Below are positions 1,718-53,565 of a stretch of 64,000 nt of DNA, in pieces (within the stretch, counting starts at the first letter, position 1; each line of letters starts with the position of its first letter). A program made the position numbers and the translations under genes. The DNA is from Tunturiibacter empetritectus (GTDB taxonomy: Bacteria; Acidobacteriota; Terriglobia; Terriglobales; Acidobacteriaceae): NCBI RefSeq assembly GCF_014201375.1, contig NZ_JACHDZ010000002.1, forward strand, positions 248,001 through 312,000. The letters are read 5' to 3'. The notes beneath the pieces are model-generated. The model searched no databases. It was not told where the DNA came from and saw only the letters and a list, made by a program, of their open reading frames with translations.

Positions 1718-1844
1718 GTCCTGCCGAACGGGCGCCCTGCGCGTGGCCACCCCGCAAACGAAGACCTGTTTGCGGGGACCCCGGGTTCGCCGCGCCCACT
1801 TCGTGGGGGTATACCGACTTCGCCTTGGGCCTCCCGTTGGTCGG
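1718..1844. repeat. modular palindromic repeat, copy 1 (half element)
   Basis: It starts with GTCCTGCCGAACGGGC and ends with CTCCCGTTGGTCGG, so it is one arm plus half of the central stem. Inside it are a hairpin CCCCGCAAAC...GTTTGCGGGG (also in copy 5) and the small hairpin CCCAC-TTC-GTGGG at 1795-1807. It lies between the zinc-ribbon gene and the ArsR gene, which are divergent. Confidence 0.85.
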
Positions 1845-1884
1845 CGGCGATTTCCTTTCAGACACAATGGAGCGACGAAAAAGT

Positions 1885-1913
1885 TTGACAAATTTTTATG
1901 TAAGTATTAGCTT
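1885..1913 (+). promoter_or_regulatory. sigma-70-type promoter of the arsR-like operon
   Basis: A perfect -35 TTGACA (1885-1890) is followed after 17 bp by TAGCTT (1908-1913). The expected transcription start is near 1920-1921, at or next to the GTG start codon, so the mRNA may be leaderless. No Shine-Dalgarno is visible before the GTG. The -10 is weak, so the assignment rests on the -35 and spacing. Confidence 0.55.
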
Positions 1914-1932
1914 ACGGTAAGTGAATACTTAC
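1900..1932. promoter_or_regulatory. twin operator, two GTAAG-N6-CTTAC dyads
   Basis: Two dyads of identical form lie in tandem with one base between them: GTAAG-N6-CTTAC at 1900-1915 and again at 1917-1932. They cover the -10 region and the first codons of the ArsR-family gene. Symmetric sites over a promoter are typical of ArsR/SmtB autoregulation, so this is the likely binding site of the adjacent repressor. That role is inferred from position. Confidence 0.65.
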
Positions 1933-2226
1933 CAAGAACGACAACTCGATGCCCTTGGGGATGTAACGCGGCGACTGTTATTGGAGAGGCTTCGCCGGGG
2001 ACCGCTGCCGGTTGGAGAGTTGGCGCGCGGTCTTACGGTGAGCAGGCCCGCGGTCTCGCAGCATCTGCGGGTTCTGAAGGAGGCGAAGCTGGTGCGCGAT
2101 GAGGCAGCAGGGACGCGGCGGTACTACAGTTTGGATCCGAAGGGGTTTGCGGCGCTGCGAAAGTATCTGGACAACTTCTGGGGCGAAGCCCTGGAAGCAT
2201 TTCAAGCGAAGGTAGAGGAGAAGTGA
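1921..2226 (+). CDS. ArsR/SmtB-family transcriptional regulator
   Basis: This 101-residue protein is a winged helix-turn-helix over its whole length. The typical ArsR segments are present: ALGDVTRRLLLERL (helix 1-2), LARGLTVSRPAVSQHLRVL (recognition helix) and a beta-wing with TRRYYSLDP. No cysteine metal site is visible, so it belongs to the non-metal branch often linked to SRPBCC proteins. The start is GTG at 1921 under a TTGACA promoter and overlaps a twin dyad operator. The next gene follows after one base, so the three genes to 3177 form an operon, and this regulator most likely controls it. Confidence 0.88.
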   Translation: MNTYQERQLDALGDVTRRLLLERLRRGPLPVGELARGLTVSRPAVSQHLRVLKEAKLVRDEAAGTRRYYSLDPKGFAALRKYLDNFWGEALEAFQAKVEEK

Positions 2227-2227
2227 T

Positions 2228-2755
2228 ATGCCGGAGAGACAACTGAATACGCAGGACACGATGACGATGGAGGTAGAGGCTCAGGTGGTCGAGCCGGTGC
2301 GGAAGAGTATTCGCGTGCGAGCCGATGCGGCGCGGGCCTTCCGCGTGTTTACCGAGGAGATGGATAGCTGGTGGCCGCGGACGCACCACATTGGCAGCTC
2401 GCCGATGAAGCGGGTGGTGGTGGAGGGCAGGCCGATGGGCGCGATCTACACGGATCAGGAAGATGGGACGATCTGTCCGTGGGGTTCGGTGCTGAAGTGG
2501 GAGCCGCCGCATTTGTTTGTGATGGCGTGGCAGATTGGGACGGACTGGAAGTTCGAACCGGATCTGAGTAAATGCAGTGAGGTGGAGGTGCGGTTTACGC
2601 CAGCGGATGATGGTACGACGCTGGTGGAGCTGGAGCATCGCGGGCTGACTCGCCACGGTGCGGGATGCGCGAAGATGCGCGAACAGGTGAACGCCGAGGG
2701 CGGATGGGGCGCTCTGCTGGGGATGTTTGCGGCCAAGACGGACGAGGCGTCGTGA
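2228..2755 (+). CDS. SRPBCC (AHSA1-like START) domain protein
   Basis: This 175-residue protein has a single START/AHSA1-like ligand-binding fold. It begins around VRKSIRVRADAARAFRVFTE, contains the WGSVLKWEPPH turn, and ends with the long C-terminal helix (GWGALLGMFA). ArsR plus SRPBCC pairs are a common arrangement in soil bacteria; the ligand is usually unknown. It sits one base after the ArsR gene, and its stop overlaps the GTG start of the following membrane protein gene by four bases, so all three are co-translated. Confidence 0.85.
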   Translation: MPERQLNTQDTMTMEVEAQVVEPVRKSIRVRADAARAFRVFTEEMDSWWPRTHHIGSSPMKRVVVEGRPMGAIYTDQEDGTICPWGSVLKWEPPHLFVMAWQIGTDWKFEPDLSKCSEVEVRFTPADDGTTLVELEHRGLTRHGAGCAKMREQVNAEGGWGALLGMFAAKTDEAS

Positions 2756-3177
2756 AGGCGGCGATGTGGTTTCGCGCTGCGGCGGTGCTGATGCTGCTGT
2801 TTGCTGTGGGCCATACTTACGGTTTTCTGGCCTTCCGCCCGAATACGGCGGAGGGCCTCGCCGTGTGGAATGCGATGAACAGCGTTCACTTTTCCGAGGC
2901 GGGCTCGACGTTCAGCTATGGCGGGTTCTATAAAGGCTTCGGTTTATCTATCTCAGCGACGCAAGTTTTTATTGCGTGGCTGACGTGGATGCTGGCTTCG
3001 ATGGCGAAGCGCGGGAGTAACGATGCACGGACGATTGCCTGGGGATTGTTTGTGGTGCAGTGCGTTGGTTTTGTGTTGTCACTGCTCTACTTTGCGGTTC
3101 CTCCCGCGGTGTTGTCGGCGCTGGGGGCGCTGTGTTTTATGATGGGCGCGGTTTCGATGCAGAGGTCTGCTGGATGA
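2752..3177 (+). CDS. four-helix membrane protein (LIC_13387-like)
   Basis: This 141-residue inner-membrane protein begins at the GTG at 2752, inside the stop of the preceding gene (GTGA overlap). Four hydrophobic segments are visible, starting with MWFRAAAVLMLLFAVGHTYG and ending with an Ala/Leu-rich helix. The first helix with its GH motif resembles proteins named LIC_13387-like. Its role is unknown. Its place behind ArsR and SRPBCC genes suggests a function regulated by the same signal. The longer frame upstream of the GTG overlaps the SRPBCC gene and is not real. Confidence 0.7.
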   Translation: MKAAMWFRAAAVLMLLFAVGHTYGFLAFRPNTAEGLAVWNAMNSVHFSEAGSTFSYGGFYKGFGLSISATQVFIAWLTWMLASMAKRGSNDARTIAWGLFVVQCVGFVLSLLYFAVPPAVLSALGALCFMMGAVSMQRSAG

Positions 3178-3190
3178 ATAGAGCTATGCT

Positions 3191-4048: not shown

Positions 4049-4102
4049 GTCGTGCTCCGGGACGCGGGAACGAGTTGATTCTAGACCATCAACTTATGCG
4101 AG

Positions 4103-4118
4103 ACCATCGCTCGATGGT
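4103..4118. repeat. short perfect inverted repeat between valS and the receiver-HATPase gene
   Basis: ACCATCG-CT-CGATGGT is a perfect 7-bp stem in the 87-bp gap. It lies downstream of valS and upstream of the next minus-strand gene. No T-run follows, so it may be a protein site or a weak terminator. Confidence 0.35.
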
Positions 4119-4135
4119 GTGGTCGACCTGCTCCG

Positions 4136-6946: not shown

Positions 6947-7066
6947 CGGTGTTTTAAGGGTAGCATCGACGGGCGTTAACCGCTGGTATGCGGTGGCGGG
7001 CTCGTGCGGCAGGAAAACGGTTCGTCGAAGACATGCATCCACGTACACTAGCCCACGAGGTTATTC

Positions 7067-7561: not shown

Positions 7562-7672
7562 TCGGCGTTTTTGCCGGGGCTGGGGTAGTGTAAGGGATTG
7601 GGGAACCTGGCCTGCGGCGTATGCGTACCACCTTCTGCACGCTGTTATTCGCTGTCATTCTCTGGGGGAACT

Positions 7673-8203: not shown

Positions 8204-8224
8204 GCGGAGTGCGTTCCAGACGAC

Positions 8225-8261
8225 AAAAAAGGATGCGGCGCTTATGGCTGCATCCTTTTTT
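8225..8261. terminator. bidirectional intrinsic terminator
   Basis: AAAAAAGGATGC and GCATCCTTTTTT flank a short GC loop. The hairpin therefore has a T-run on both strands. It sits between two convergent genes, ending 8203 and 8289, and should stop transcription from both. Confidence 0.9.
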
Positions 8262-8288
8262 GTTTGATGAGAAAGAGGTTCGAAGAGA

Positions 8289-10010: not shown

Positions 10011-10110
10011 CCGCTATAGACCCCATCCGCCTCGCGCGGTCAGCGCTCAGGCTGTGTTCTATTCTAATCGTTCCTGTCTGATCCTTACTACTGCGGGACT
10101 TGGGCCGCGC

Positions 10111-10788: not shown

Positions 10789-10906
10789 GGGGGTTCGCTC
10801 CTGAATGTGAGTTTATCAGCGCGAGACCATGAATTTTCTTTGACTGGGGGGTGCGAACGGAAGTAGTCAGTTATATGCTTGCCGAACTAGTGCTGGCGGA
10901 GGTTTT

Positions 10907-11056: not shown

Positions 11057-11107
11057 GCAAGCCGTTTAAATTTCTTGGGATACCGTAGACCGTTTGCGTG
11101 ACACGAT

Positions 11108-11127: not shown

Positions 11128-11198
11128 TCAGCAGCTGAAGAGGCATTCGAACGAACCCGCTATCGATTCTCAGGGTCATCACGGCTCAGGACCAGAGC

Positions 11199-28867: not shown

Positions 28868-28877
28868 CCCTCCCCCA

Positions 28878-28904
28878 GGACGGTGCAGTTAGTCCGCACC
28901 GTCC
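28878..28904 (+). terminator. hairpin after the OmpA-like gene
   Basis: GGACGGTGC (28878-28886) pairs perfectly with GCACCGTCC (28896-28904), 11 bp after the stop codon. There is no T-run, so it may stabilise the 3' end rather than stop transcription by itself. Confidence 0.5.
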
Positions 28905-28978
28905 GCAAGTTTGCCGAGATAGCGACCTAGAGCGCACTCGCAAAAACCTCTCCTAACCAGAGAGAACCAAGGCAGATT

Positions 28979-29007
28979 GGCCCCTCGTTGAGGGGCCGCT
29001 TTTTTTA
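28979..29007 (+). terminator. intrinsic terminator
   Basis: GGCCCCT pairs with AGGGGCC around a short loop and is followed by GC and eight Ts. This is the real terminator of the OmpA-like transcript, just before repeat copy 2. Confidence 0.9.
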
Positions 29008-29017
29008 AGTGATAAAT

Positions 29018-29212
29018 GTCCTGCCGGACGGGCCCACTGCGCGTGGGGCGGGCGTTCGCACGCCTTTTTAGAGCTTCGCGTGGTCCTCCCGTTGGTCGGA
29101 GGGAAAGATTGATTTCGACCAACGGGAGAACCGTCGAGGTTCATCCTGCCAAGACAAGGTATACGCGTCACGAAGTGACCGCCTCCCGCGCAGGGAGCCT
29201 GTCCGGCAGGAC
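29018..29212. repeat. modular palindromic repeat, copy 2 (full element)
   Basis: GTCCTGCCGGACGGGC at the left and its inverse at the right enclose CTCCCGTTGGTCG (29086-29098) and CGACCAACGGGAG (29116-29128). The left arm is the GCGTTCGCACGCC...AAGCTTCGCGTGG type. The right arm is the GTATAC/GTCACGAAGTGAC type (hairpin 29167-29179). It fills the space between the OmpA terminator and the kdsA stop, ending 7 bp from it. Confidence 0.92.
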
Positions 29213-39065: not shown

Positions 39066-39066
39066 C

Positions 39067-41499: not shown

Positions 41500-41533
41500 C
41501 CATATCGGTGACAATCCTAAGCAGTCTCTCGTG

Positions 41534-41630
41534 CCGACCAACGGGAGGAAGCCAAAGTTCGTCTTACCGAAAAGAGGTATACAAGTCACGAAGTGACCGC
41601 TCCACGCGCAGTGGGCCCGTCCGGCAGGAC
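41534..41630. repeat. modular palindromic repeat, copy 3 (half element)
   Basis: It starts with CCGACCAACGGGAGG and ends with GGGCCCGTCCGGCAGGAC, so it is one inverted arm with half of the central stem. It holds the GTCAC-GAA-GTGAC hairpin (41585-41597) and the stem CCAC/GTGG around the TGCGC-type loop. It lies between the convergent fhs and cupin genes. Confidence 0.9.
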
Positions 41631-41678
41631 AACTCTTTCGATTTAATCCGCGCAGCGAGCTACACCGGCATCTCAAAG

Positions 41679-42269
41679 CTACTTCACCCAGTTCGGCCCG
41701 ATAAACTCCCGCAGCGTCTCCGGGGTAGCCCACTCCGCCTTCCCGGCAAATCGCTTCACCCACTCAGCACCCTCGCCAATCCTCACGCGATCCGGCGTAA
41801 ACTCCGGCGAAAGCGTATTCACCATCAGCGCGAAGCTAGCTCCCTCATGCAGCCGCAGCGCCTTCCAGCAGCCACCCGGCACCGCCACTACTGGCCGCTG
41901 CCCCGCCGCATAGTCGAACCCAAGCGTCACCTTCTCCACACGTCCCTCCGGATGAAAGATGAAGTAGTCCACCGGCCCACCCTCCACCAGGATGTGCGTA
42001 TCGTCCGGCTCCAGCCAGTGGAGATAGTTGATCGGCCTCTCCCGCGTAAGCATGTAGTAGTTCTGGCTCTGCACCGCGAGCATGCGCCCACCAACCGTCA
42101 CCTTCTGCGCAGAGACTCCGATGATCCCCAGATACCCCGACTCCTTCGGCAGCACCGACAGCTTCAGCGTACGAATCAACTCCCTCGCGCGCGCATCTGT
42201 CGCTGGAGTCGCCCCCTGCAACCCACCGATAGTGGCCACGCAAACCGCGGCAAGCAAAAAGCGCCTCAT
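41679..42269 (-). CDS. exported cupin-fold protein (DUF985-like)
   Basis: This 196-residue protein has a signal peptide (MRRFLLAAVCVATIGGLQGA) and a cupin/RmlC-like barrel of the DUF985 type: ELIRTLKLSVLPKESGYLG, NYYMLTRERPINYLHWLEPDDTHILVEGGPVDYFIFHPEGRVEKVTLG, and RPVVAVPGGCWKA. DUF985 proteins are usually cytoplasmic; the signal peptide here suggests export. Function unknown. Confidence 0.82.
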   Translation of the reverse strand: MRRFLLAAVCVATIGGLQGATPATDARARELIRTLKLSVLPKESGYLGIIGVSAQKVTVGGRMLAVQSQNYYMLTRERPINYLHWLEPDDTHILVEGGPVDYFIFHPEGRVEKVTLGFDYAAGQRPVVAVPGGCWKALRLHEGASFALMVNTLSPEFTPDRVRIGEGAEWVKRFAGKAEWATPETLREFIGPNWVK

Positions 42270-42300
42270 GCCCGCAGACTAGCAGACGACAGCAAGAGAA

Positions 42301-43257
42301 CTAAGCCTTTTGTCCCGCCGCAATATCCTCATCCACCACAGTCGCAGCTCCGCTCTTCATCTTCGAGCTGGTCACCAGAAACACCGCCACCAGAATCGCC
42401 GCCATCCCCACATACTCCACCGCAACAAAGCGCTCCTTCAGCAGGATCACCCCAAGAATCACCGCGATCACCGGATTCACATAGGCATACGTCGCCACCT
42501 TCGACACCGCCACATGGTCCAGCAGGTAGACATACGCGCTGTAAGTAAGAATCGATCCGAACGCCGCCAGATAAAGCGTAGAAGCCCAGGCCTGCAGTCC
42601 CCATTGCGCCCCGTGGTATCCCTTCGTCACCACCAGCATCAACGCATTGAACACACCGCCGAACAGCATCTCCCAACCCGCCGCCGCGAATCCGCTAATC
42701 CGAAATGTCGACCGCCGCGAGATCACCGAAGCGCTTGTCCAGCACATCGCTCCGCCCAGCGTCACCCCCGCCGCGACGATCTGCCGCGAGTCACCACGCA
42801 GCCCCTCCCGCAACCCCGGCCACAGTAGAAACACAATCCCCACGAACCCGATGCAGACCCCAACCCACCCCTTCGCTCTCAACCCTTCGCCCCTGGGCAG
42901 CACAATCTCGATCAGCGCCGCATACAACGGAATCACCGCCACCAGCAGCGCCGCCAGCCCCGTCGGAAGATACTGCTCCGCCCAGATCACCGACGTATTC
43001 CCGCACCCCAGCATCAGCACACCAATCACAATTAGCCGCACCAACTCCTGCCGGTTCGGCCGCATCTTCTTCTTCAGCACAGCCGACGCCGCCAGCATCA
43101 GCACGCCCGCTATCAGAAACCGCACGCTCCCCAGCACAAACGGCGGCAGCACCTCCACCCCATACCGCATCGCCAGGTACGTCGATCCCCAGAAGAGATA
43201 AACGCATGCAAAACACAGCAGAATCCGCGTTCGATTTGGCGCTGAATTGACGGGCAT
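42301..43257 (-). CDS. EamA/DMT-family transporter
   Basis: This 318-residue inner-membrane protein has ten predicted helices in two EamA repeats. The first repeat starts LLCFACVYLFWGSTYLAMRYG (the FWGSTY motif is typical). The second has GGAMCWTSASVISRR and ends with PVIAVILGVILLKERFVAVEYVGMAAILVAV. DMT transporters usually export metabolites or amino acids; the substrate is unknown. It lies 31 bp upstream of the cupin gene and may share its transcript. Confidence 0.92.
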   Translation of the reverse strand: MPVNSAPNRTRILLCFACVYLFWGSTYLAMRYGVEVLPPFVLGSVRFLIAGVLMLAASAVLKKKMRPNRQELVRLIVIGVLMLGCGNTSVIWAEQYLPTGLAALLVAVIPLYAALIEIVLPRGEGLRAKGWVGVCIGFVGIVFLLWPGLREGLRGDSRQIVAAGVTLGGAMCWTSASVISRRSTFRISGFAAAGWEMLFGGVFNALMLVVTKGYHGAQWGLQAWASTLYLAAFGSILTYSAYVYLLDHVAVSKVATYAYVNPVIAVILGVILLKERFVAVEYVGMAAILVAVFLVTSSKMKSGAATVVDEDIAAGQKA

Positions 43258-43331
43258 TGCTCAATGGTATCGCGCCTTTGTCTCGCGCCCGACGCCTGCA
43301 GGCAAAGCCCTCCCGGTGCTACGATAAGGAG

Positions 43332-44042
43332 ATGGTGCTTCGTCCTGCTGCCTTATTGCTCGTCCTTCTCGTCTGTGTCTCTGCGTTCGCTCAAACTCCC
43401 GACCAGTCCTCCGCCCAGTCCAATCCCAACCTGCCGCGGAGCTTCCACGATCAGGATCTGAACATCACCTACTTCTACCCCGGCCGCTTCGTGCCCGACC
43501 CCGCAAGCGTCGCCGAAAGAACCGCCCCAGAGTCCTCCAGCTCAACCACCACCGCGACGCCGAAGTGTGCCCGCTCCACCTTCTTCGCCAACTCGGTCTC
43601 CCCGGTCGACACCTCCTCCTTCGTCCTCTCCACCATCGACAACACCTGCCCCAACGTCCTCCGTGGCGCCACCACGCTCGGCCCCTTCATCCGCGAGCAG
43701 ATCCTCCGCCAGCTCAAGCAGTACGGCGAGCCCACCGTCACCCAGGAGGCCACCCGCTACTCCATCGACGGCCATCCCGCAGCCATCGTCCTGGCCTCAG
43801 TCCCCATGCCAGCCACCGCCGGAAAGATCCCCCAGACCACCTACGCTGCCAAGGCCTGCTTCCTCGGCAACATCCCCGTCAAAGCGAAGAAGAAGTCCGA
43901 TCCCGTCGACCCCACCCGTCACGTCCTCTGCTTCGACTACACCACCCTGCACAGCGACCTCTACCATCTCCTGTTCGCCTTCAGCCTGCAGTTCGACAAC
44001 GACACCCCCCAGCCCCTGGTCCCCGGCAGCGTCATCCGCTAG
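43332..44042 (+). CDS. secreted hypothetical protein
   Basis: This 236-residue exported protein has a signal peptide (LRPAALLLVLLVCVSAFAQ) and a Ser/Gln linker, then LNITYFYPGRFVPDPASV. Four spaced cysteines follow (KCARSTFF, DNTCPNVL, KACFLG, VLCFDY) that could form disulfides. A stretch RYSIDGHPAAIVLASVPMP suggests a compact beta-rich domain. AAGGAG lies directly before the ATG; the GTG one codon later is an equal candidate. Its layout resembles that of the 39067-39840 product. Function unknown. Confidence 0.7.
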   Translation: MVLRPAALLLVLLVCVSAFAQTPDQSSAQSNPNLPRSFHDQDLNITYFYPGRFVPDPASVAERTAPESSSSTTTATPKCARSTFFANSVSPVDTSSFVLSTIDNTCPNVLRGATTLGPFIREQILRQLKQYGEPTVTQEATRYSIDGHPAAIVLASVPMPATAGKIPQTTYAAKACFLGNIPVKAKKKSDPVDPTRHVLCFDYTTLHSDLYHLLFAFSLQFDNDTPQPLVPGSVIR

Positions 44043-44084
44043 CGCAACATTGTCCCGCAAGCAACACGAGCCGTCAGCCCCGCG

Positions 44085-46745
44085 TTACTCCTCGCGCAGC
44101 AGCAGCAAAGGATCTGTAGCCAGCGCACGCCGCGCCGGAATCCAGCCAGCGAGCAACCCCAGCAGAAGCATCGTCACCAACACACCACCCAGCACAATCG
44201 GATCCCACGGCGTAGCCTGAGACACGATAAAAGCAATCACCTTGCCCGCCGCAAGACCAAGCAACATCCCGACAGCCGAACCGAACGCCAGCAATCGGAA
44301 GGTCCGCCCCAACGCCGCCTGCAACAGCTCTCTCCGTTGCGCGCCCAGTGCGATGCGAATCCCAAACTCTCGCAGCCGCTTGCTCACCGAGAAAGACGCC
44401 ATACCAAAGATCCCAACTACTGACAGCATCGCGCCCATCACTCCCAATACACCGAGTGAAATCGTCGCCATCCGCGGACCAAACAGAGCCGCATCCAGAG
44501 TTTGAAAGCGCGTCTGGATATAAACCGGCAGCCCTGCATCCAGATTCCGCAAAGTGCTCCTGATGGCCAGTGCAAGTTGCTCCGGATTCCGGCTCGAGCG
44601 CACCACAAGGTACGCTGAGTTGGAGGGCGATTGCAAAATAGGAAGAAACATCGCCGGCTGCGGATCTTCCGTGAGGCTTCCATACTTTCCATCCTCGGCA
44701 ATCCCCACAACTTGTACGCGTGCTCCTTCCGGCAACTTGAAGTACGCGCCCATAGCCTTTGCTTCCGTGCCGAAGATCTTCCGCGCAAACTGTCGATTTA
44801 CCACCGCGACACGTGGTTTGTCCTTGTTATCCTGCCAGCTAAATTCTCTTCCAGACACCAGCGCCGTACCTGCCGCTTGAAAGTATTCGGGCGAGATCTT
44901 GAACATGATCGAATTTGTTGCGGCATTCGCAGGCCTTAGATCCGTCGTACTGTCGGTGAAGACGTTCGAGTCCGGTTGCGTATCGCCCAAAGGCACCTGA
45001 TCCCCCAGGCCCACGGTTTCAACGCCGGGAATCGCAGCCAACGCATCAATCATGCGCTTTTGCATGGGCGGAACCTTGTCGCCCAGATAGCCCGCCATAT
45101 TTAGGTCCGTCTCAACCAGCATCGTGTTCTTCAATTCGAAGCCAAAATTGTTGTGCAGCGAATTGGCTAAACCGCGGACCGCGACAATCGAAGAAGTGAC
45201 AAGCACGGCGCAGATTGCAATCTGCACCACAAGTAACAAATCGCGGAAACTCATCCGCAAACCAAACCGTCCGCGCTTCGTCTCTACTGCGCCACCCTTC
45301 ACCGCCTCATACGGATCGGTGCGAAGAACCTGCCCTACCGGCACCGCACCAAACAGTAGTCCACTGGCCAACGCCAGAAACAAAGCGACCGCATACACCT
45401 TTACATCCGGATTCACGGACATACGAAGCGGCCACCGGGAGATTGGCTGCCACACGCTCAACGCCCGCAACAACGCCACGCTGCCTGCAAGGCCAACCGC
45501 CCCACCCACCAGCGAAATCAAGATAGCTTCGGCAAAGAGCCCACGCAGAATCCGTTTGCGGCTCGACCCAAGCGCCAGCCGCAGAGCGATCTCCCGCGAT
45601 CGATCCGAAGCGCGTGCCGCAAACAGGCTGCCCAGGTTGGCGCACGCTGCCAGCAGAATCAATCCCGCCAATAGCATCAGTGCGGTCATAAACGTCCGCA
45701 CAGGGCGGCCAATATAGTCGCCATAAAGCCCCGGCCGCGCCAGTTTGAACCTCATCTTGGGATCGTCTTTCGGGTACGCCTTCTCAAGAGAAGCTCCAAC
45801 CGAGTTCAGATCCGCAATCGCCTGCGCCGGAGTCACTCCTGCCTTCAGGTGTCCCAACGTCATAAACACCCAACGATTGCCTCGATTGTTCAGATCGGTC
45901 TCATCGAACTGCGCATGATTCACAATCGGCACAAAAAAATCCGGATTGAAGAATATCAGCGTGCCGTGAAACTCCGGCGGCCCAACCCCAACAATCGTGT
46001 AGGGAAATTTGTTCAGCCGGACGACACGACCGACGACGCTCGGATCACCCTGAAAGTGGCTGCGCCAGTAGTCGTACGTCAGCACAATGTATGGTGCGCT
46101 GTTCGGGCCGTGTTCATCGGAGCCATGAAAGAACCGCCCCAGGTAAGGCTCCAACTTCAGAGCATCGAAGTAATTTCCGCTGGTCTCTTCGATCCAGGCG
46201 CGCGAGGGATCGCTGCCCGTATCCAGCGCCGCCTGCATGACGTTGTAAGCCGCCACACTCTCAAAGCTGTGGTTGCGGTCCCGCAGGTCGAGATAGTCCG
46301 GATATGACTCGGACATATCGCCGGGCAGGCGCCACAGCCCGTAAAGGCTCTCCGACTGGGGCACATTCAACGGCCGCAGGATGAACGCATTCAAAACACC
46401 AAACACAACCGCATTCGCCCCAATCGCAAACGTCAGTGTCAAAATGGCAACAATCGCGAAGCCAGGTTTCTTGGCCATCCGGCGCAGCGCGAAACGAATA
46501 TCCTGAAGCAGCCCCTCGCCAAACTGGCCGCCCAGTGCATCGCGGCTCTCTTCTTTCAATCGCTGATAACCACCAAACTCGATACACGCACGCCTCTCTG
46601 CCTCTGCGCGTGGAAGACCACCACGCTCGAGATCATCGGCGCGATGTTGAATATGCGAGCGAAGCTCCTCCTCAATCTCACGATCAATCTCAGCACGATG
46701 AAACAGCGTCGAAACAAAGGAGCGTAGAGAGTCGATGAGTCTCAT
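44085..46745 (-). CDS. ADOP-type MacB/FtsX-family ABC permease
   Basis: This 886-residue membrane protein has two FtsX-type permease halves with MacB-like periplasmic domains. It begins with a helical N-terminal domain typical of this group (RAEIDREIEEELRSHIQHRADDLERGG, ERRACIEFGG), then RFALRRMAKKPGFAIVAILTLTFAIGANAVVF. The conserved transmembrane endings are RSREIALRLALGSSRKRILRGL and RLREFGIRIALGAQRRELLQAAL. Such duplicated permeases without their own ATPase gene are amplified in Acidobacteria. Its ATG overlaps the PadR stop by four bases. Confidence 0.92.
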   Translation of the reverse strand: MRLIDSLRSFVSTLFHRAEIDREIEEELRSHIQHRADDLERGGLPRAEAERRACIEFGGYQRLKEESRDALGGQFGEGLLQDIRFALRRMAKKPGFAIVAILTLTFAIGANAVVFGVLNAFILRPLNVPQSESLYGLWRLPGDMSESYPDYLDLRDRNHSFESVAAYNVMQAALDTGSDPSRAWIEETSGNYFDALKLEPYLGRFFHGSDEHGPNSAPYIVLTYDYWRSHFQGDPSVVGRVVRLNKFPYTIVGVGPPEFHGTLIFFNPDFFVPIVNHAQFDETDLNNRGNRWVFMTLGHLKAGVTPAQAIADLNSVGASLEKAYPKDDPKMRFKLARPGLYGDYIGRPVRTFMTALMLLAGLILLAACANLGSLFAARASDRSREIALRLALGSSRKRILRGLFAEAILISLVGGAVGLAGSVALLRALSVWQPISRWPLRMSVNPDVKVYAVALFLALASGLLFGAVPVGQVLRTDPYEAVKGGAVETKRGRFGLRMSFRDLLLVVQIAICAVLVTSSIVAVRGLANSLHNNFGFELKNTMLVETDLNMAGYLGDKVPPMQKRMIDALAAIPGVETVGLGDQVPLGDTQPDSNVFTDSTTDLRPANAATNSIMFKISPEYFQAAGTALVSGREFSWQDNKDKPRVAVVNRQFARKIFGTEAKAMGAYFKLPEGARVQVVGIAEDGKYGSLTEDPQPAMFLPILQSPSNSAYLVVRSSRNPEQLALAIRSTLRNLDAGLPVYIQTRFQTLDAALFGPRMATISLGVLGVMGAMLSVVGIFGMASFSVSKRLREFGIRIALGAQRRELLQAALGRTFRLLAFGSAVGMLLGLAAGKVIAFIVSQATPWDPIVLGGVLVTMLLLGLLAGWIPARRALATDPLLLLREE

Positions 46746-47083
46746 ATTTCCTCCGGTTGCGGTGCAAGTGCGCTGGCGATCGCGGTAGCCAGGCGGTTCC
46801 AGCTGTCCGTCTCTTCCTGCAGGCGCTTAAGGCCCACTGCAGTCAGCTCGTAAAACTTGGCCCGGCGATTATTTTCCGAGGTGCCCCAGTCAGCCTTCAG
46901 CAGACCCTGACGCAGCAGACGAAACAACCCGGGATACAGCGCGCCCTGCTCAATCAGCAGCGCTCCGCCGGAGATCTGCTCAATGCGCAGAAGCACGCCA
47001 TACCCATGCAAAGGCCCAAGCGAGACCGCGCGAAGAATCAGAAGATCGAGTGTGCCGGGAAGGAGTTGGGCCTGGGTGGTCAA
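46742..47083 (-). CDS. PadR-family transcriptional regulator
   Basis: This 113-residue winged-helix repressor has the PadR pattern: LLPGTLDLLILRAVSLGPLHGYGVLLRIEQ, LIEQGALYPGLFRLLRQGLLKADW, RRAKFYELTAVGLKRLQEE. The start is TTG at 47083 with AGGGGG upstream, under a clear promoter. It is co-translated with the ADOP permease gene through an ATGA overlap; PadR genes usually control such permeases. Confidence 0.92.
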   Translation of the reverse strand: MTTQAQLLPGTLDLLILRAVSLGPLHGYGVLLRIEQISGGALLIEQGALYPGLFRLLRQGLLKADWGTSENNRRAKFYELTAVGLKRLQEETDSWNRLATAIASALAPQPEEI

Positions 47084-47105
47084 GTGTCCCCCTAAGATGA
47101 TTAGG

Positions 47106-47134
47106 AGGCTAGACCTACTTCCCTAAGCTGTCAA
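47106..47134 (-). promoter_or_regulatory. sigma-70-type promoter of padR-permease operon
   Basis: On the minus strand TTGACA (47134-47129) is followed after 17 bp by TAGCCT (47111-47106). Transcription should start near 47099, about 16 bases before the TTG start. The -35 lies 11 bp from the end of repeat copy 4. Confidence 0.7.
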
Positions 47135-47145
47135 GGAGAGTTTTT

Positions 47146-47323
47146 GTCCTGCCGGACGGGCCTCCTGCGCGGAGTGCGGTCACTTCGTGACGCGTATACC
47201 CCTTCGGTTGGCGCTCCCGTTGGTCGCGAACGAAGATGATTCCGACCAACGGGAGGACCACGCGAAGCTTTAAAAAGGCGTGTGAACGCTCGCTCCACGC
47301 GCAGTGGGCCCGTCCGGCAGGAC
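47146..47323. repeat. modular palindromic repeat, copy 4 (full element)
   Basis: GTCCTGCCGGACGGGC opens it and GCCCGTCCGGCAGGAC closes it. The core is CTCCCGTTGGTCG...CGACCAACGGGAG. The left arm holds CTCC-TGCGC-GGAG (47162-47174) and GTCAC-TTC-GTGAC (47179-47191). The right arm is the AAGCTTTAAAAAGGCGTGTGAACGC type. It lies between divergent padR and aminotransferase genes. Confidence 0.93.
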
Positions 47324-47665
47324 ATAGGTTTTCGAGTGTTACCACGATAAGGTATACTCACCGCCAAAGGCAGATTCCCCATGAAATCGCTGTTCGACAC
47401 AGCCCGGACCAATCGCAGCGCAGCCTTCCAGTGCCGCTCCAGGCGCCACCAGATGCCGCGCCGCCATCTCCGCGTTCTGCCCAGCCTCACGCGACCTAGT
47501 CTCTTCGCCGGCGACTAAGCGCACCACCCTCCAGCCGGCGAAGTCCTCGCCACCAGCGCAAACCGTTCTCTCTGCAACCACAGAGCGCCGCCGTCCCTCA
47601 TCCGGAACGGACACGAGCACGAACGGAAAGACCAAACGCCCCGTTGCCCCCAAGGAGAGATTCGC
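47324..47665. other. 342-bp leader stretch before the aminotransferase gene
   Basis: No gene is supported here. A short AAGGTATACTCACCGCC at 47349-47365 resembles an internally deleted repeat arm. The rest is GC-rich with unbroken but low-quality frames on both strands. The end holds AGGAGA, seven bases before the ATG at 47666. A promoter is expected but I cannot point to one. Confidence 0.4.
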
Positions 47666-49075
47666 ATGACCACCCTGACCGAAAAGACCCTCGAAGACCT
47701 GAAGCCCGCCGCCGGAGAAGCCATCCGCTCCAAGCACTACGCCGAGTTCGGCCCCAAGATCAAAACCACCCTCCCCGGCCCCCACGCCAAAAAGATCGTC
47801 GCCGACGACGACCGCCTCATCTCCCCCAGCTACACCCGCAGCTACCCCATGGTCGCCAAATCCGGCCGCGGCATCCGCGTCACCGACGTCGACGGCAACG
47901 AGTTCCTCGACTTCGCCGCCGGAATCGCCGTCAACTCCACCGGCCACTGTCATCCCGAAGTCGTCAAAGCCATTCAAGATCAGGCCGCCGAACTCATCCA
48001 CATGTCCGGCACCGACTTCTACTACCAGAACATGACCACCTTCGCCGAGCGCCTGTCCGCCATCGCACCCATGCCCGGCCCGCACAAGTTCTACTACGGC
48101 AACTCCGGCGCCGAAGCCGTCGAGTGCGCCATGAAGCTCGCCCGCTACCACACCGGCCGCCAGAACATCATCAGCTTCTTCGGCGCCTTCCATGGCCGCA
48201 CCATGGGAGCGCTCTCGCTCACCGGCTCCAAGCCCCAGCAGAAGCGCCGCTTCGCCCCCTTCGTCCCCGGCGTCCACCACGTCCGCTACCCCTACGCCTA
48301 TCGCGGCTGTAGCGGCGGCCCGCAGGAAGAAGAAGCCTTCGCCCTCGGCTGCGCCCGCTACATCGAAGAAAAACTCTTCAAAACCATCCTCCCGCCCGAA
48401 GAGGTCGCTGCCATCATCCTCGAGCCCATCCAGGGCGAGGGCGGCTACGTCGTGGCCCCCACCAACTTCCTTCAGGAGATTCGCCGCATCTGTGACCGCC
48501 ACGGCATCCTCCTCATCGCCGACGAGGTCCAGTCCGGCGCCGCGCGCACCGGCAAGTGGTGGGCCATCGAGCACTCCGGCGTCCAGCCCGACATCGTCTG
48601 CATCGCCAAAGGCATCGCGTCCGGCATGCCTCTAGGCATCTGCATGGCAAAAGCCGACGTCATGGACTGGGTCCCCGGCTCGCACGCCAGCACCTTCGGC
48701 GGCAACCCCATCTGCATCGCCGCCGCCCTCGCCACCATGGACATCCTCGAGCGCGAAGGCCTCAAAAACGCCGCCACCATAGGCGAAAAGATGCTCGACC
48801 GTCTCCGCCCCTGGGTAGCGAAACACCCCACCGTAGGCGACGTCCGCGGTCGCGGCCTCATGATCGGCGTCGAACTCGTCAAAGACAAGCAGTCCCGCAC
48901 CCCGGTAGGCCCCATGCGCGACAAGGTCGTCGATCTGGCCTTCGAGCGCGGCCTCCTCATCCTCGGCTGCGGCGAAACCACCATCCGCCTCTGCCCCCCG
49001 CTCATCGTCAACGAGCAGGAGGCCAACGTAGCCCTCGACATCCTCGAGGAGTGCATCACCCTCGCGGCAAAATAA
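47666..49075 (+). CDS. class III PLP aminotransferase (GabT/ArgD-like)
   Basis: This 469-residue fold-type I PLP enzyme has RGIRVTDVDGNEFLDFAAGIAVNSTGHCHPEV, the cofactor site GNSGAEAVECAMKLAR, SFFGAFHGRTMGALSLTGSK, EPIQGEGGYV, LLIADEVQSGAARTGKWWA and the PLP lysine in IVCIAKGIASGMPLG. It resembles 4-aminobutyrate and acetylornithine aminotransferases; the exact amino donor cannot be told. AGGAGA precedes the ATG by seven bases. Repeat copy 5 starts one base after the stop codon. Confidence 0.9.
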   Translation: MTTLTEKTLEDLKPAAGEAIRSKHYAEFGPKIKTTLPGPHAKKIVADDDRLISPSYTRSYPMVAKSGRGIRVTDVDGNEFLDFAAGIAVNSTGHCHPEVVKAIQDQAAELIHMSGTDFYYQNMTTFAERLSAIAPMPGPHKFYYGNSGAEAVECAMKLARYHTGRQNIISFFGAFHGRTMGALSLTGSKPQQKRRFAPFVPGVHHVRYPYAYRGCSGGPQEEEAFALGCARYIEEKLFKTILPPEEVAAIILEPIQGEGGYVVAPTNFLQEIRRICDRHGILLIADEVQSGAARTGKWWAIEHSGVQPDIVCIAKGIASGMPLGICMAKADVMDWVPGSHASTFGGNPICIAAALATMDILEREGLKNAATIGEKMLDRLRPWVAKHPTVGDVRGRGLMIGVELVKDKQSRTPVGPMRDKVVDLAFERGLLILGCGETTIRLCPPLIVNEQEANVALDILEECITLAAK

Positions 49076-49076
49076 G

Positions 49077-49327
49077 GTCCTGCCGGACGGGCTCCCTACG
49101 CTTGACCACCCCACAAACGAAGACCTGTTTGCGGGGGCCCCGGTTCGGGCGGTCACTTCGTGACGTGTCTACCGGTCTTGGCGAACCAGACTGCATAGCT
49201 CCTCCCGTTGGTCGGCACAATCTTCTCCCCCGACCAACGGGAGGACCCGCATCCCCAAACCCTCCCAGACAAGGTACACAAGTCACGAAGTGACCGCTCC
49301 GCGCGCAGCGGGCCCGTCCGGCAGGAC
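49077..49327. repeat. modular palindromic repeat, copy 5 (longest full element)
   Basis: This 251-bp element fills nearly the whole gap between two convergent genes: it starts one base after the aminotransferase stop and ends nine bases before the SDR stop. It has both ends, the core CTCCCGTTGGTCG...CGACCAACGGGAG, two GTCAC hairpins (49152-49164 and 49282-49294), and the CAAACGAAGACCTGTTTG hairpin shared with copy 1. Confidence 0.93.
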
Positions 49328-49336
49328 AGCGTACCC

Positions 49337-50161
49337 TTACGAGCGCACTCCATACCGCTTCGCCGCATGCTTGTGCGAAAGGTTCGGCCCCAGCGCCACG
49401 CGCGCTGCATTGAACCGCTCCCAATCCGCAACCTCAGGCAGCGCCGGAATCGTGACCAACTCCCCGCTGTCGAACCCAGCCAGCGAAGCATCCACCATCT
49501 CCTCCGAGCTCATCACAATCTCCGACGGCAGATTCTCATGCCCGCCAATCCCCGCACGGTCCCAGAACTCCGACGCCGTAGCCCCAGGCAGCACAGCCTG
49601 CACCTGAACACCCTTGCCGCCCACCTCTTTATGCAGCGACTGCGTAAGATTCAGCACATACGCCTTTGTCCCGCTGTACACGCCGTTCAGCAGCTCCGGA
49701 GCCACCGCAACAACCGAAGAGATGTTGATGATCGCGCCCTTTCCTCTCGCCAGAAACCCCGGCACCACAGCATAGGTCAGCCGCGTCAACGCCGTCACAT
49801 TCAACTCAATCATGTTCTCGAGCTCATCAATCTTCGAGTCCACCAGCGAAGTCGTTCCGCCAAAGCCCGCATTGTTCACCAGCATCGTAATCGACGCATC
49901 CGACCGCAGCTGCTCCTCCACCCTGCGCAGATCCGCTTTGTTCGTAAGATCCGCAGCAACCGCATCAACCGAACGGCCAGTCGCCGAACTCAGCGAAGCC
50001 GCCAGCTCCTTCAGCTTTTCGCCGTTGCGAGCCACCAGGATCAGGTCATAGCCGCGGTGCGCCAGCCGATCCGCATACACTGCACCGATTCCTGTCGATG
50101 CGCCAGTAATAAGAGCAGTGCCAAGAGCATTGCCTGTAAAAGAAGTAGCCGAGGTCGTCAT
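49337..50161 (-). CDS. short-chain dehydrogenase/reductase
   Basis: This 274-residue Rossmann-fold oxidoreductase has the cofactor motif TGASTGIG, DLTNKADL, NNAGFGG, and the catalytic Ser...YSGTK set (INISSVVAV, then GVYSGTKAY). An Arg in the second strand (LILVARN) suggests NADPH. The start at 50161 has GGAG six bases upstream; a second ATG four codons earlier (50173) is possible. The substrate is unknown. A TTGGGA-N17-TAGTAA promoter can be read upstream on the minus strand. Confidence 0.9.
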   Translation of the reverse strand: MTTSATSFTGNALGTALITGASTGIGAVYADRLAHRGYDLILVARNGEKLKELAASLSSATGRSVDAVAADLTNKADLRRVEEQLRSDASITMLVNNAGFGGTTSLVDSKIDELENMIELNVTALTRLTYAVVPGFLARGKGAIINISSVVAVAPELLNGVYSGTKAYVLNLTQSLHKEVGGKGVQVQAVLPGATASEFWDRAGIGGHENLPSEIVMSSEEMVDASLAGFDSGELVTIPALPEVADWERFNAARVALGPNLSHKHAAKRYGVRS

Positions 50162-50284
50162 AAGAGTCTCCATACTGCGAAGGTGTGAATCAGAAAACTA
50201 ATTCGCTTCGTTAGAGTAGACCGGTTGGTTACTAGATTCAAAAAAACTCTTTCCCAAGAGGAAGTTCTCTAAGGCGTAACTCTG

Positions 50285-51913
50285 CTAATCCTGCCCGGCC
50301 ACACCTCGTGCTTCGACCAGCTCCCGACGTCCAGGCCGGTCGGCCCGCTCGGCAACCTTGACCAACTCATGGAAGTACCTCTTAGCCTTCTCTTGATCGC
50401 CGGCCCTCTTCGCCGCCTCAGCTGCCCCATAGAGCGACCAGAAGCGATTCGGCTCCCTCTTGAGCGTCGCTTCAAACTCCACCAGCGCTTCAGCGGGGTG
50501 CTTCGACTCCAGCAGCAAATCTCCCAGCAGCTCGCGAGCTGGAGCGAGCGGCCCCGGCGTAACCACACTCTTTTCGGTCGCATCCTCCATCTCGGCAGCT
50601 CTGCGCATCCCAGCCAATGCGTCCTCGAAGTGCCCCTGCGAAGACTCGAGCCATGCGACCACTTCCAGCCGTTGAATCTCCACCTGGTTCGCCCAGAAGC
50701 CCTCTTTCATCGTGTTCAGCCGGTCGCGGCACTGCGCCAGAGAGTCGATTGCAGCTCGTGCAGCCGCAGCGTCCTTCAAATGCGCAGCCCCCAGGCCCCG
50801 GGCAAAGTAGGTCATGGCCTCCGTGTAGGGAAACGGGCTCGCCAGCGGCTGGAGCTTTGCAGCGTCTGCCCAGTCTCGCCGCTCCAGATCGTATCGTGCC
50901 GGTATCGCCGCCCTCGCAAAGTAGGCCGCCGACGGGCTGGCCGCCCCACCGATCTGCATCTTCGGATCGAAGCGCAAAAAAATCTGTTCAGCAGATTCCG
51001 CTGCACCCTTCGCAGCGTTGTCCTGGGCCGTCTGCAGGTAGGCGTACTCCAGATAATCGCTGGCATGCAACTGGTCCGCCGGCTGTCCTGCCTCTCGTGC
51101 AGACGCCGCAGAAGAAACATTCGCGTCAATCGAAGCCTGCCAGTCTCCCACCCGCGTAAACGTATGCGAGGGCATGTGCAGCGCGTGAGGAGTCGATGGC
51201 GCAATCTCACTGTAATGCTGCGCCGCCCCAGCCGCCCGTGCAGCCAGGGGCGGAACGTCATACGTGTGGATGATGTAGTGCGCCAGCCCAGGATGGTCGG
51301 GATACTGAACGTATAGGCGATCCAAAATCGCGCCAGCCTTCAGTTGCCGGGCGTAAGTTTTATCGGTCGGATCAGCGGCAGCAGACACAGCCAGCGCATA
51401 GAAGATGGCCGCCTCCGTGTCCTCAGGGTAAGCCGCGCTCACCGCAGCCATCGCGCTCTCATAGGCCAGCTTCCGAGAGCGCTGATCGACGGTCGCGGTA
51501 TCGGTATAGAGATGCGCAACAGCCTCAAGATAAACATGCTCACGCTCACTCTTCGGAGGCGATTCTCGTCCCTGCTCCACGGCCTTCAGGCCTGCATCGA
51601 GTTGTGCCTGCGACTTGAGACCCGAAGCGAACGGATTGCCCCAGTCGCTCAATGCGATACCCCAGTAAGCCATCGAGCACGACGGATCGCTCCCAAGAAT
51701 CGCATGGAAAGCCTCAATCGCACTCGCAAACTGAAACGAGTGCATCAGCGCCACCGCCCGATTGAACTGTGGCTGCACTGCGCTGCTGCACGATGTGCTG
51801 AAGCTCACCGTCCCCAACTTCTCCGACGAGGCGTGATGGTCGGCCTGAGCAAAGCCCACCGTCGACAGCAGCGCAAGCGCCACAACAGACGAGGTGAAGC
51901 GAGTTCGCATCAT
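50285..51913 (-). CDS. exported TPR-repeat protein
   Basis: This 542-residue protein has a signal peptide (RTRFTSSVVALALLSTVGFAQ) and repeated TPR-like helical pairs from SSAVQPQFNRAVALMHSFQFASAIEAFHAIL to LVEFEATLKREPNRFWSLYGAAEAAKRAGD. A central stretch with conserved His (LAHYIIHTYD, PHALHMPSHTF) is typical of a widespread family annotated only as TPR proteins. Starts at 51913 and 51910 are equivalent. A short direct repeat (GATCTTCCGGGGAAAGATCTTCCG) lies just upstream. Function unknown. Confidence 0.82.
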   Translation of the reverse strand: MMRTRFTSSVVALALLSTVGFAQADHHASSEKLGTVSFSTSCSSAVQPQFNRAVALMHSFQFASAIEAFHAILGSDPSCSMAYWGIALSDWGNPFASGLKSQAQLDAGLKAVEQGRESPPKSEREHVYLEAVAHLYTDTATVDQRSRKLAYESAMAAVSAAYPEDTEAAIFYALAVSAAADPTDKTYARQLKAGAILDRLYVQYPDHPGLAHYIIHTYDVPPLAARAAGAAQHYSEIAPSTPHALHMPSHTFTRVGDWQASIDANVSSAASAREAGQPADQLHASDYLEYAYLQTAQDNAAKGAAESAEQIFLRFDPKMQIGGAASPSAAYFARAAIPARYDLERRDWADAAKLQPLASPFPYTEAMTYFARGLGAAHLKDAAAARAAIDSLAQCRDRLNTMKEGFWANQVEIQRLEVVAWLESSQGHFEDALAGMRRAAEMEDATEKSVVTPGPLAPARELLGDLLLESKHPAEALVEFEATLKREPNRFWSLYGAAEAAKRAGDQEKAKRYFHELVKVAERADRPGRRELVEARGVAGQD

Positions 51914-52019
51914 AGCCACTCTCGGCGGAACGATCTTCCGGGGAAAGATCTTCCGAGGAACGATCAACTCGATCATAGCCCAGTCCTTGCCGCTCAAGGA
52001 CTCAAGCGTGCCCGTCAGC

Positions 52020-52607
52020 CTACTTCTTCAGCAACACATCAAACGCAAAGTGAAGAAAGTTTTCGAGCGGCCTGTCACTCTTCTCCGCCTTCATCCGTAT
52101 CAGCGCCCCCTCATAGCTGTTCAGCAGAAACGCCGCCAGGGCATCCGGCTGCATAGACTTCGCCAGATCCCCCCGCTGAATCGCCTCCCGCAGCACATCC
52201 GCGATGCTCTTCTGCCACGCCGCAAAGACCCCCCGCAGCTCCGACCGCATCCTGGGGCTGTGATCCGCCACCTCCAGGCTCAGGCTCCCCACCAAACATC
52301 CGCTGATCTCGCCGCGCTGCCCATAGATCGAGATCAACTCCTCGAAGTATCGCCGCAGCCGCTTCAAAGGAGCACCCTTGCGATCCCCAAGAACCCGCGC
52401 CGACCGCTCCGCCTCGCCCTTCGCGTAAAGCTGAAACACCTCCACCGCAAACTCTTCCTTGCTCGGGAAGTAGTGATAGAACGAGCCCTTCGGCACCTTC
52501 GCCACATCAAGCACCTCCTTCACCCCGGTCGCGGTATACCCAGTCGAACGAAGCCGTTCGAGCCCCACCGCAAGCAGATGATCGCGAGTTGAGGGAGCAG
52601 TGCTCAT
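52020..52607 (-). CDS. TetR-family regulator (AcrR/NemR-like), probably autoregulated
   Basis: This 195-residue repressor has an N-terminal HTH (GYTATGVKEVLDVAKVPKGSFYHYFPSKEEF) and a ligand-binding C-terminal domain with GCLVGSLSLEV, the GC-x-GN/S type seen in NemR-like proteins that sense electrophiles. Its own promoter contains a TAGAC-N5-GTCTA dyad. The same half-sites occur before the hydrolase gene at 53.7 kb, so that gene is a likely target. A second TetR gene is divergent. Confidence 0.92.
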   Translation of the reverse strand: MSTAPSTRDHLLAVGLERLRSTGYTATGVKEVLDVAKVPKGSFYHYFPSKEEFAVEVFQLYAKGEAERSARVLGDRKGAPLKRLRRYFEELISIYGQRGEISGCLVGSLSLEVADHSPRMRSELRGVFAAWQKSIADVLREAIQRGDLAKSMQPDALAAFLLNSYEGALIRMKAEKSDRPLENFLHFAFDVLLKK

Positions 52608-52616
52608 AACTGATTG

Positions 52617-52645
52617 ATAATAGACTGGTCGTCTATAAGAGTCAA
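52617..52645 (-). promoter_or_regulatory. promoter with embedded TetR operator
   Basis: On the minus strand TTGACT (52645-52640), a 17-bp spacer and TATTAT (52622-52617) make a strong sigma-70 promoter. The spacer and -10 hold the perfect dyad ATAGAC-N5-GTCTAT (52620-52636). A bound repressor would cover the promoter, so the TetR gene is probably autorepressed. Confidence 0.8.
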
Positions 52646-52701
52646 CTCTCAGGGATCATCTCTCTTCGGTAATCCTGCGATAGCTTGTCGGAAGCAAAAT
52701 G

Positions 52702-52772
52702 CCGACCAACGGGAGGCCCATCCCCGTTAACCCACTCAGACCTTCTCGCGTAGGGAGCCCGTCCGGCAGGAC
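52702..52772. repeat. modular palindromic repeat, copy 6 (half element, degenerate)
   Basis: It runs from CCGACCAACGGGAGG to GGGAGCCCGTCCGGCAGGAC. The arm is short and lacks the GTCAC hairpin. It lies between two divergent TetR genes. Confidence 0.82.
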
Positions 52773-52820
52773 AGAGTTTACTGAGTCCCCCGCTGCGCAC
52801 ATCCCATCTAACCTGTAACC

Positions 52821-53399
52821 ATGGCGCGCACCAAAGAATTCGACCCGGACGCAGCCCTCGAGATCGCTGTCGAAGTCTTCTGGCGCCTTGGCTACGAGCA
52901 CACCTCGCTAGACACGCTCATGCGAGAGATGGGAATCTCCAGGCAGAGCCTCTACGACACCTTCGGAGACAAGCGCTCAATCTACTTCAAGGCCATGAGC
53001 CGCTATCGCGACAAGACGAACGGCGACCTCAAGGATCTCCTCACCCACGAAAAGCCGGTCAGGAAAGCCTGCGATAGCCTCTTCCAATCCATCATCCGTG
53101 AGAGCAGGGCACAGCACGAACGCGGATGTCTGCTCATGAACGCCAATCTAAGCCGCTCCGTCGACGACGTGGAGATTAAAGCCTTCCTGCGCGACAACCA
53201 GAAGGATGTCGAGCGAATCTTCACGACGGCATTTGTCGAAGCAAAAAAGCGCGGCGAGCTTGCCCCGGAGAAGGACCCGGTTGCCTTGTCGAAGTTTTTC
53301 GTGGCTACCATCCAGGGAATGCGAGCGCTGGCCCGGCTCAACCATGACCGCAAGGAACTGGCACATGTAGCAGCCGTTGCGCTTGCCGCCCTCGACTAA
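52821..53399 (+). CDS. TetR-family transcriptional regulator
   Basis: This 192-residue protein opens MARTKEFDPDAALEIAVEVFWRLGYEHTS, continues with the recognition helix MGISRQSLYDTFGDKRSIYFKAM, and has a C-terminal domain with RGCLLMNANLS. It belongs to the group of TetR proteins with the FDPDxAL start, distinct from the divergent neighbour. The target is not clear; a role in the same locus is likely. Repeat copy 7 begins seven bases after the stop. Confidence 0.92.
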   Translation: MARTKEFDPDAALEIAVEVFWRLGYEHTSLDTLMREMGISRQSLYDTFGDKRSIYFKAMSRYRDKTNGDLKDLLTHEKPVRKACDSLFQSIIRESRAQHERGCLLMNANLSRSVDDVEIKAFLRDNQKDVERIFTTAFVEAKKRGELAPEKDPVALSKFFVATIQGMRALARLNHDRKELAHVAAVALAALD

Positions 53400-53406
53400 G
53401 AAATTT

Positions 53407-53565
53407 GTCCTGCCGGAAGGGCCCGCTGCGCGCGGGGCGATCACTTCGTGATAGGTATACCCCTTCGGTTGGCGCTCCCGTTGGTCGCGACGGAAGAGAA
53501 TCTCCGACCATCGGGAGGACCATGCGAAGCTTTAAAGAGGCGTGTGAAGGCCCGTCCGGCAGGAC
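53407..53565. repeat. modular palindromic repeat, copy 7 (full element, shortened right arm)
   Basis: It opens GTCCTGCCGGAAGGGC and ends GGCCCGTCCGGCAGGAC. Hairpins are CCCGC-TGCGC-GCGGG (53422-53436) and ATCAC-TTC-GTGAT (53440-53452). The core stem has one change (CGACCATCGGGAG). The left arm from GTATACC to the core is almost identical to that of copy 4. It lies between the TetR gene and the hydrolase gene, both on the plus strand. Confidence 0.92.

Follow-up and report, generated by a model that had tools for sequence, protein, structure and literature searches.

A 64,000-nucleotide stretch of the Tunturiibacter empetritectus genome (hereafter the window; G000:C2:248001-312000, where G000 is the 4.83 Mb genome it comes from) contains seven intergenic repeats belonging to a new family that resembles REP (repetitive extragenic palindromic) and BIME (bacterial interspersed mosaic element) repeats and shows strong concerted evolution; its mechanism of exchange and its function are inferred. 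On balance we slightly favor the reading that these modular repeats keep their places, mostly near stop codons, that ectopic gene conversion between copies probably exchanges their hairpin cassettes, and that they would serve as hairpin barriers at gene ends.

The unit of the family is a half, made of a tip hairpin, three more small hairpins and the core CTCCCGTTGGTCGG, which occurs singly or as a tail-to-tail inverted pair. Searching the window for the tip motif GTCCTGCCGGACGGGC with up to 3 mismatches gave 13 sites vs 1.43 expected, a number reached in none of 100 shuffles. Eleven of the 13 have 0-1 mismatch and all of these are ends of the seven elements; the two remaining sites (7000 and 39238, 3 mismatches each) lie outside them. 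The core CTCCCGTTGGTCG, searched with up to 2 mismatches, was found at 14 sites vs 2.75 expected (again 0 of 100 shuffles reached this), 11 of them inside elements and the other three, each with 2 mismatches, outside. With tip and core counts this far above shuffles, the original prediction of seven related elements at these places was borne out, as were its descriptions of them as intergenic and free of genes (none of the seven shares more than 20 bp with a called gene) and as 70-250 bp long (71-251 bp by our measurement). Four are inverted pairs and three are single halves, and they lie between convergent genes in three cases, tandem genes in one and divergent genes in three. The elements, with the parts of the inverted pair that served as search query (copy 4), are as follows.

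1718..1844, plus strand: single half, tip to core; a 58-bp alternative hairpin module replaces hairpin 2; between divergent genes
29018..29212, unstranded: inverted pair of halves, one arm with a 'g' block and the other with a long block; the stop of the right-hand gene is 8 nt away
41534..41630, minus strand: single half; convergent genes on either side, with stops at 41499 and 41679
47146..47323, unstranded: inverted pair, copy 4; between divergent genes; search query
47146..47157, plus strand: hairpin 1 (tip) in the left half of copy 4, GTCC-TGCC-GGAC; other arm types in genome G027
47162..47174, plus strand: hairpin 2 of copy 4, CTCC-TGCGC-GGAG; changes on both sides in 3 of 4 pairs of the alignment
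47179..47191, plus strand: hairpin 3 of copy 4, GTCAC-TTC-GTGAC; changes on both sides in 2 of 5 pairs
47201..47207, plus strand: hairpin 4 of copy 4, CC-TTC-GG; changes on both sides in 1 of 2 pairs
47214..47255, unstranded: the two cores of copy 4 and the intervening loop, CTCCCGTTGGTCG ... CGACCAACGGGAG
49077..49327, unstranded: inverted pair, its left half containing the 58-bp module; one stop codon 1-2 nt away, the convergent one 9 nt away
52702..52772, minus strand: single shortened half; between divergent genes
53407..53565, unstranded: inverted pair; a stop codon 7 nt before it; between tandem genes

Just before the element at 29018, positions 28868-29010 hold a structured, non-coding-looking sequence that ends in a GC-rich hairpin and a T run and matches no Rfam family.

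Within a half, the tip consists of hairpin 1 (GTCC-TGCC-GGAC) followed by GGGC, after which come hairpin 2 (four-base arms around a loop that is mostly TGCGC), hairpin 3 (GTCAC-TTC-GTGAC), a TATACC stretch, hairpin 4 (CC-TTC-GG or GC-TTC-GC) and the core. The arms of hairpin 2 are exactly complementary in 140 of 176 halves and fall into five common types. Alternative blocks exist: a 'g' block (GGGCGTTCGCACGCC...) can replace hairpins 3-4, hairpin 4 can give way to a longer block, and the 58-bp module, itself a hairpin, can take the place of hairpin 2. Sixteen hairpins of the 58-bp type were found in the sequence examined, 15 in or beside recognized elements and one unrelated. For counts beyond the window we used a sample of 1.264 Mb of the genome (C1 1-800000, C4 1-400000 and the window itself), in which 104 halves measure 58-140 bp, exactly 82 bp in 50 of them; in the 58 inverted pairs that could be parsed in all the sequence examined, the halves are joined at their cores through a spacer of 10-18 nt. 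Arm types in these 58 pairs combine non-randomly, with 23 pairs of a g arm and a short arm vs 12.7 expected, no g+g pairs vs 4.4 expected, and 3 short+short pairs vs 9.1 expected.

Rather than being confined to the window, the family was found throughout the genome and in related genomes. Across the whole genome, 306 sites match the tip with up to 2 mismatches vs 19 for a reversed control pattern, and 277 match the core with up to 1 mismatch vs 3. The sample accounts for 110 of the 306 tips and has 73 elements of two or more modules, which scales to an estimated ~200 elements in the genome; one-module clusters, clusters of type 'T- T+' and lone hits with at least two mismatches were dropped before counting. 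The original count of seven copies was therefore too low. Copy 4 as query matched 25 of 61 related genomes, all of them among the 37 that belong to one genus, and a covariance model built from 56 halves likewise gave matches in 25 of the 61 and in that genus only. Thirteen of its 37 genomes had at least 10 hits and are called element-rich here; up to 75 candidates were scored per genome, so that a count of 75 is a minimum. Among the matches listed, the named records belong to Edaphobacter lichenicola strains, Granulicella spp. and metagenome bins. A search of plasmids and phages with copy 4 gave no match, nor did a search of viral contigs for the exact tip-plus-hairpin-2 pattern.

We compared the elements with those of two relatives, G031 and G014, at orthologous sites chosen by gene synteny and kept only if both flanks aligned, which left 35 (G031) and 29 (G014) of the 73 sample elements; a first comparison, which used loci retrieved via the element itself, was excluded from the counts. 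An element is present at the same place at 31 of the 35 sites in G031, 27 of them in the same single or paired state, and at 20 of the 29 sites in G014, 19 in the same state; sites scored as absent include degenerate remnants, such as that at C4:121294 in G031. Across 64 orthologous half pairs (39 from G031 and 25 from G014) the halves have an identity of 0.81 vs 0.74 for random pairs, and the mean identity of the flanks is 91.1%. Orthologous halves agree in hairpin-2 type in 39% of cases (14% by chance), in middle block in 56% (33%) and in length class in 67% (51%); for G014 alone, the length-class agreement was not above chance (equaled in 212 of 500 shuffles). The 58-bp module of the element at 49077-49327 has no counterpart in the pairs that occupy this place in the two relatives. 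G000, G031 and G014 share their five leading hairpin-2 types.

In a further relative, G027, new types account for 255 tips and the usual type for 4; the corresponding counts are 1 and 284 in G000, 0 and 296 in G031, and 2 and 202 in G014. The first of the two tip patterns used was exact and longer, so that its counts are minimums. Elements in G027 carry two tip hairpins, with GGCC/GGCC and GCGC/GCGC arms, often one of each per pair, and hairpin 2 is of the CCAC type in all but two of the rows listed. Presence also differs at two places, where a truncated copy at G000 C1:229086 faces an empty site in G014 and one pair in G027 is missing from G000, G031 and G014, indicating that elements are also gained or lost. 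Beside an element in G027 lies a partial match to a sequence between divergent genes in G000 (C4 ~251700-251850, GAATTCGGACTAAGTTGGTTTGCATTTACAAGTCCGATAC) that is well conserved in G031 and G014.

The hairpins themselves are supported by pairing. In 56 distinct halves, 97.0% of 839 cells can pair vs 85.0% after shuffling, cells changed on both sides number 92 vs a shuffled mean of 26.2, and the covariation score is 0.319 vs 0.031-0.076 when partners are slid by 1-3 columns. The halves came from three genomes, and the local fold was drawn from the same data as the covariation test, which makes the test partly circular. Alignment A1, though intended for one block type, holds at least three 'g'-type halves. 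Between species, the arms of hairpin 1 covary, as the G027 tips read GGCC-TGCC-GGCC and GCGC-TGCC-GCGC. RNAalifold run on 49 halves gave a mixed long-range fold that was set aside for the local one. Pairing of one arm of an element with the other was rejected as the main constraint, since hairpin-2 types agree in 26% of the 58 pairs vs 16% by chance (33 of 1000 shuffles were as high) and the two tips of a G027 pair often differ. The evidence is better for local hairpins, and a weak arm-arm link remains.

Among 2133 cells from 188 unique halves, 2078 are Watson-Crick pairs, 13 G-T, 17 A-C and 25 other (hairpin 1 was counted on 188 halves, hairpin 2 on 154, hairpin 3 on 142 and the outer hairpin-4 pair on 55, with hairpin 3 located via its inner letters, which favors those pairs). 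A structure required only in the RNA of one strand should tolerate G-T more readily than A-C, and hairpins 1-4 do not. This pattern fits hairpins in DNA, a role for both strands, or cassettes being exchanged whole. Correction of quasi-palindromes by template switching would likewise leave paired changes and few intermediates of the G-T or A-C kind; in that account the arms stay complementary although the hairpins serve no function and copies exchange little. Template switching at replication has a precedent in RNA genes, according to PMC8794818. We nevertheless consider this account improbable, because copying one arm onto the other does not by itself swap whole blocks (c, g, long and the 58-bp module), and because it leaves unexplained both the five arm types at non-orthologous sites and the bias toward stop codons.

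That bias emerged when the 73 sample elements were placed among genes predicted with a crude caller made for this analysis, some of whose starts are wrong (a gene called at 47666 can start at 47381). In only 3 of the 73 does the overlap with a called gene exceed 20 bp. Convergent genes flank 29 elements, tandem genes 35 and divergent genes 9, so that 64 of 73 have a convergent or tandem setting, and the intergenic regions themselves divide into 185, 632 and 184. Convergent positions are in clear excess (29/73 vs 18.5% of intergenic regions, p 2.5e-5). Elements between tandem genes are nearer the upstream stop codon in 30 of 35 cases, at a median of 15 nt, and those between convergent genes lie at median distances of 10 and 14 nt from the two stops.

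Such positions would suit multiplied bidirectional intrinsic terminators, all the more since in 15 of the 29 convergent cases the gaps to the two stops are both 20 nt or less, so that another terminator would not fit. T is also weakly favored 5-8 nt outside the tip, and behind one conserved gene (G000 C1 ~590600) G027 has an element where G000 has a plain terminator-like hairpin. However, none of the 16 terminator-like sites (a GC-rich hairpin with a T run directly behind it) found in 41000-54500, a stretch with five of the seven elements in which 13.2 such sites are expected by chance, overlaps an element. Convergent gene ends have terminator-like sites equally often with an element (7/58) and without one (28/218). 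We therefore judge terminators to be quite an unlikely origin of the family. The most economical guess is instead a putative hairpin barrier at transcript ends, usable from both sides.

Two kinds of transposition might have produced repeats with this layout. The original prediction had pointed to a RAYT (REP-associated tyrosine transposase) as something to look for, and the search returned one intact RAYT-type protein (171 aa) on another contig, at C1:442147-444430, together with a 72-aa fragment with a nearly identical start. Around this RAYT are several copies of a repeat (GGTGCCCCATTCATG...) of another kind than the element studied here, and neither tip nor core was found in the eight RAYT loci examined, each ~3 kb long (two in G000, which overlap, and six in other genomes, of which only those of G031 and G036 come from element-rich genomes). 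No RAYT match was detected at E 0.001 in five of the 13 element-rich genomes (G002, G005, G014, G027 and G028), yet a match exists in 19 of the genus's 24 element-poor genomes. With loci lacking tip and core and with patchy presence, no link to a RAYT as present-day driver was found. A REPIN-like non-autonomous element, copied by a RAYT that recognizes small hairpins in single-stranded DNA, is supported by the inverted dimers with hairpins, the intact RAYT in G000 and the three matches in G031, matches in 8 of the 13 element-rich genomes and the pair that G027 has and three relatives lack. A RAYT that was later lost may have spread the elements, given that E. coli genomes lacking a RAYT retain REPINs (PMC8049555), and we regard the REPIN-like reading as unlikely rather than negligible.

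The second kind is a MITE (miniature inverted-repeat transposable element), which the original prediction had mentioned beside REP/BIME as a possible likeness. Inverted ends, many copies and the two presence/absence differences would all be expected of a MITE moved by a DDE transposase and by now mostly fixed. In 43 inverted pairs, however, we found no target-site duplication of 2-12 nt: none of 20 tests rose more than 2.4 standard deviations above shuffles, the highest values being 34% vs 28% at 5 nt and 33% vs 25% at 3 nt (2.2-2.4 standard deviations). The sample, out of a 4.83 Mb genome, has a single tip-to-tip stretch of 350-4000 bp, which holds one gene and has flanks that also occur in G031; DDE families were not searched. 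A MITE that duplicates its target was accordingly rejected, and a MITE moved by a DDE transposase now seems very unlikely, so that of the two likenesses only REP/BIME held up, through the inverted pairs, the intergenic location, the mosaic of motifs and the bias toward gene ends.

Several results weigh against a place-keeping, module-exchanging hairpin barrier. Orthologous halves are more alike than random ones, and their modules agree above chance in all three measures when pooled, which indicates that exchange is only partial. In the alignment of 56 halves, two measures do not exceed shuffles, one counting the pairs changed on both sides (reached by 165 of 500 shuffles) and the other the further pair types (500 of 500); hairpin 1 shows no covariation there, and because the copies are related the covariation counts are not independent events. 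The 58-bp module departs from the other hairpins, having one A-C mismatch in 5 of 15 copies and G-T in none, a pattern that is not strand-symmetric, as A-C on one strand is G-T on the other. With regard to position, the shortage of divergent settings (9/73) has p 0.23 by number and reaches p 0.0024 only by length, and three of the seven window elements sit between divergent genes. As for function, no terminator signal was found in the five elements scanned or in the comparison of convergent gene ends.

The original statement that no named acidobacterial element with this sequence is known agrees with our searches, as no description was found in the open-licence literature searched and Rfam gave no hit above its curated cut-off in the whole window; at E 1, positions 47000-49500 gave a chance match to a microRNA model, below threshold at 22.4 of 80 bits. 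Integron attC sites, which have GTTRRRY and RYYYAAC boxes at their outer ends, do not fit by eye, since GTTGGTC and GACCAAC sit in the central core here. BOX elements of pneumococcus, modular intergenic repeats built from different boxes, are similar in being modular and intergenic; they belong to another phylum and are likened here by description, not by sequence.

Closer likenesses are found among palindromic repeats. REP families of the GTAG and CGTC types are characterized in PMC3733652 as short palindromic tagged units, mostly between convergent and tandem genes. Like these and BIMEs (PMC2817692), the element is a high-copy palindromic intergenic unit, single or in opposite-facing dimers, near coding ends and mostly between convergent and tandem genes, with heterogeneous stems and loops. 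It is a mosaic of motifs, resembling a BIME in layout. Unlike a REP, which is a single stem of 20-40 bp, the unit here is 58-140 bp long with four successive hairpins and exchangeable blocks, and no transposase association was found for it, nor any stem of the described form carrying a GTAG or CGTC tag. The letters CGTC do occur in the reverse of the tip (CCCGTCCGGCAGGAC), where, judged by eye in 104 of our halves and 56 aligned ones, they do not tag an 8-9 bp stem with a CCA tail. With REPINs, as portrayed in PMC3116915 and PMC8049555, it shares an inverted doublet predicted to form a hairpin in single-stranded DNA or RNA, and long-persisting populations; it differs from that portrayal in its frequent single halves at conserved places, its modules swapped at fixed positions and the several element-rich genomes without a RAYT match. 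The TIR-associated tyrosine transposases of Acidobacteria, treated in PMC3733652, come from the same phylum, and G000 has such a transposase with its own repeats, but the tip and core of our element are absent from the RAYT loci examined. Because the tag and RAYT features are lacking, we describe the element as REP/BIME/REPIN-like by layout and do not file it as a member of any of these families.

We read these results as copies that mostly stay put while their contents are probably rewritten by ectopic gene conversion, with modules moving by homologous recombination between copies and tips and cores probably acting as shared anchors; template switching within hairpins may add to this. The hairpins would form in single-stranded DNA, in transcripts or in both, where they would protect or define the mRNA 3' ends of genes reading in from either side. 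A broader view, which we hold tentatively, is that the ~200 fixed addresses behind genes constitute one cassette pool that is continually rewritten at the DNA level, such that a variant could be replaced in nearly all copies without a transposase.

REP-type repeats are usually explained by a transposase that copies them to new places. Here, most of the positions compared are common to different species and a RAYT often goes undetected, while inner sequences turn over in blocks between flanking genes that keep ~91% identity; in one species, nearly all the tips counted are of a different kind. Should the proposed reading be true, concerted evolution of short dispersed bacterial repeats could be measured site by site, and these defined sites would allow gene conversion, template switching and hairpin function to be separated.

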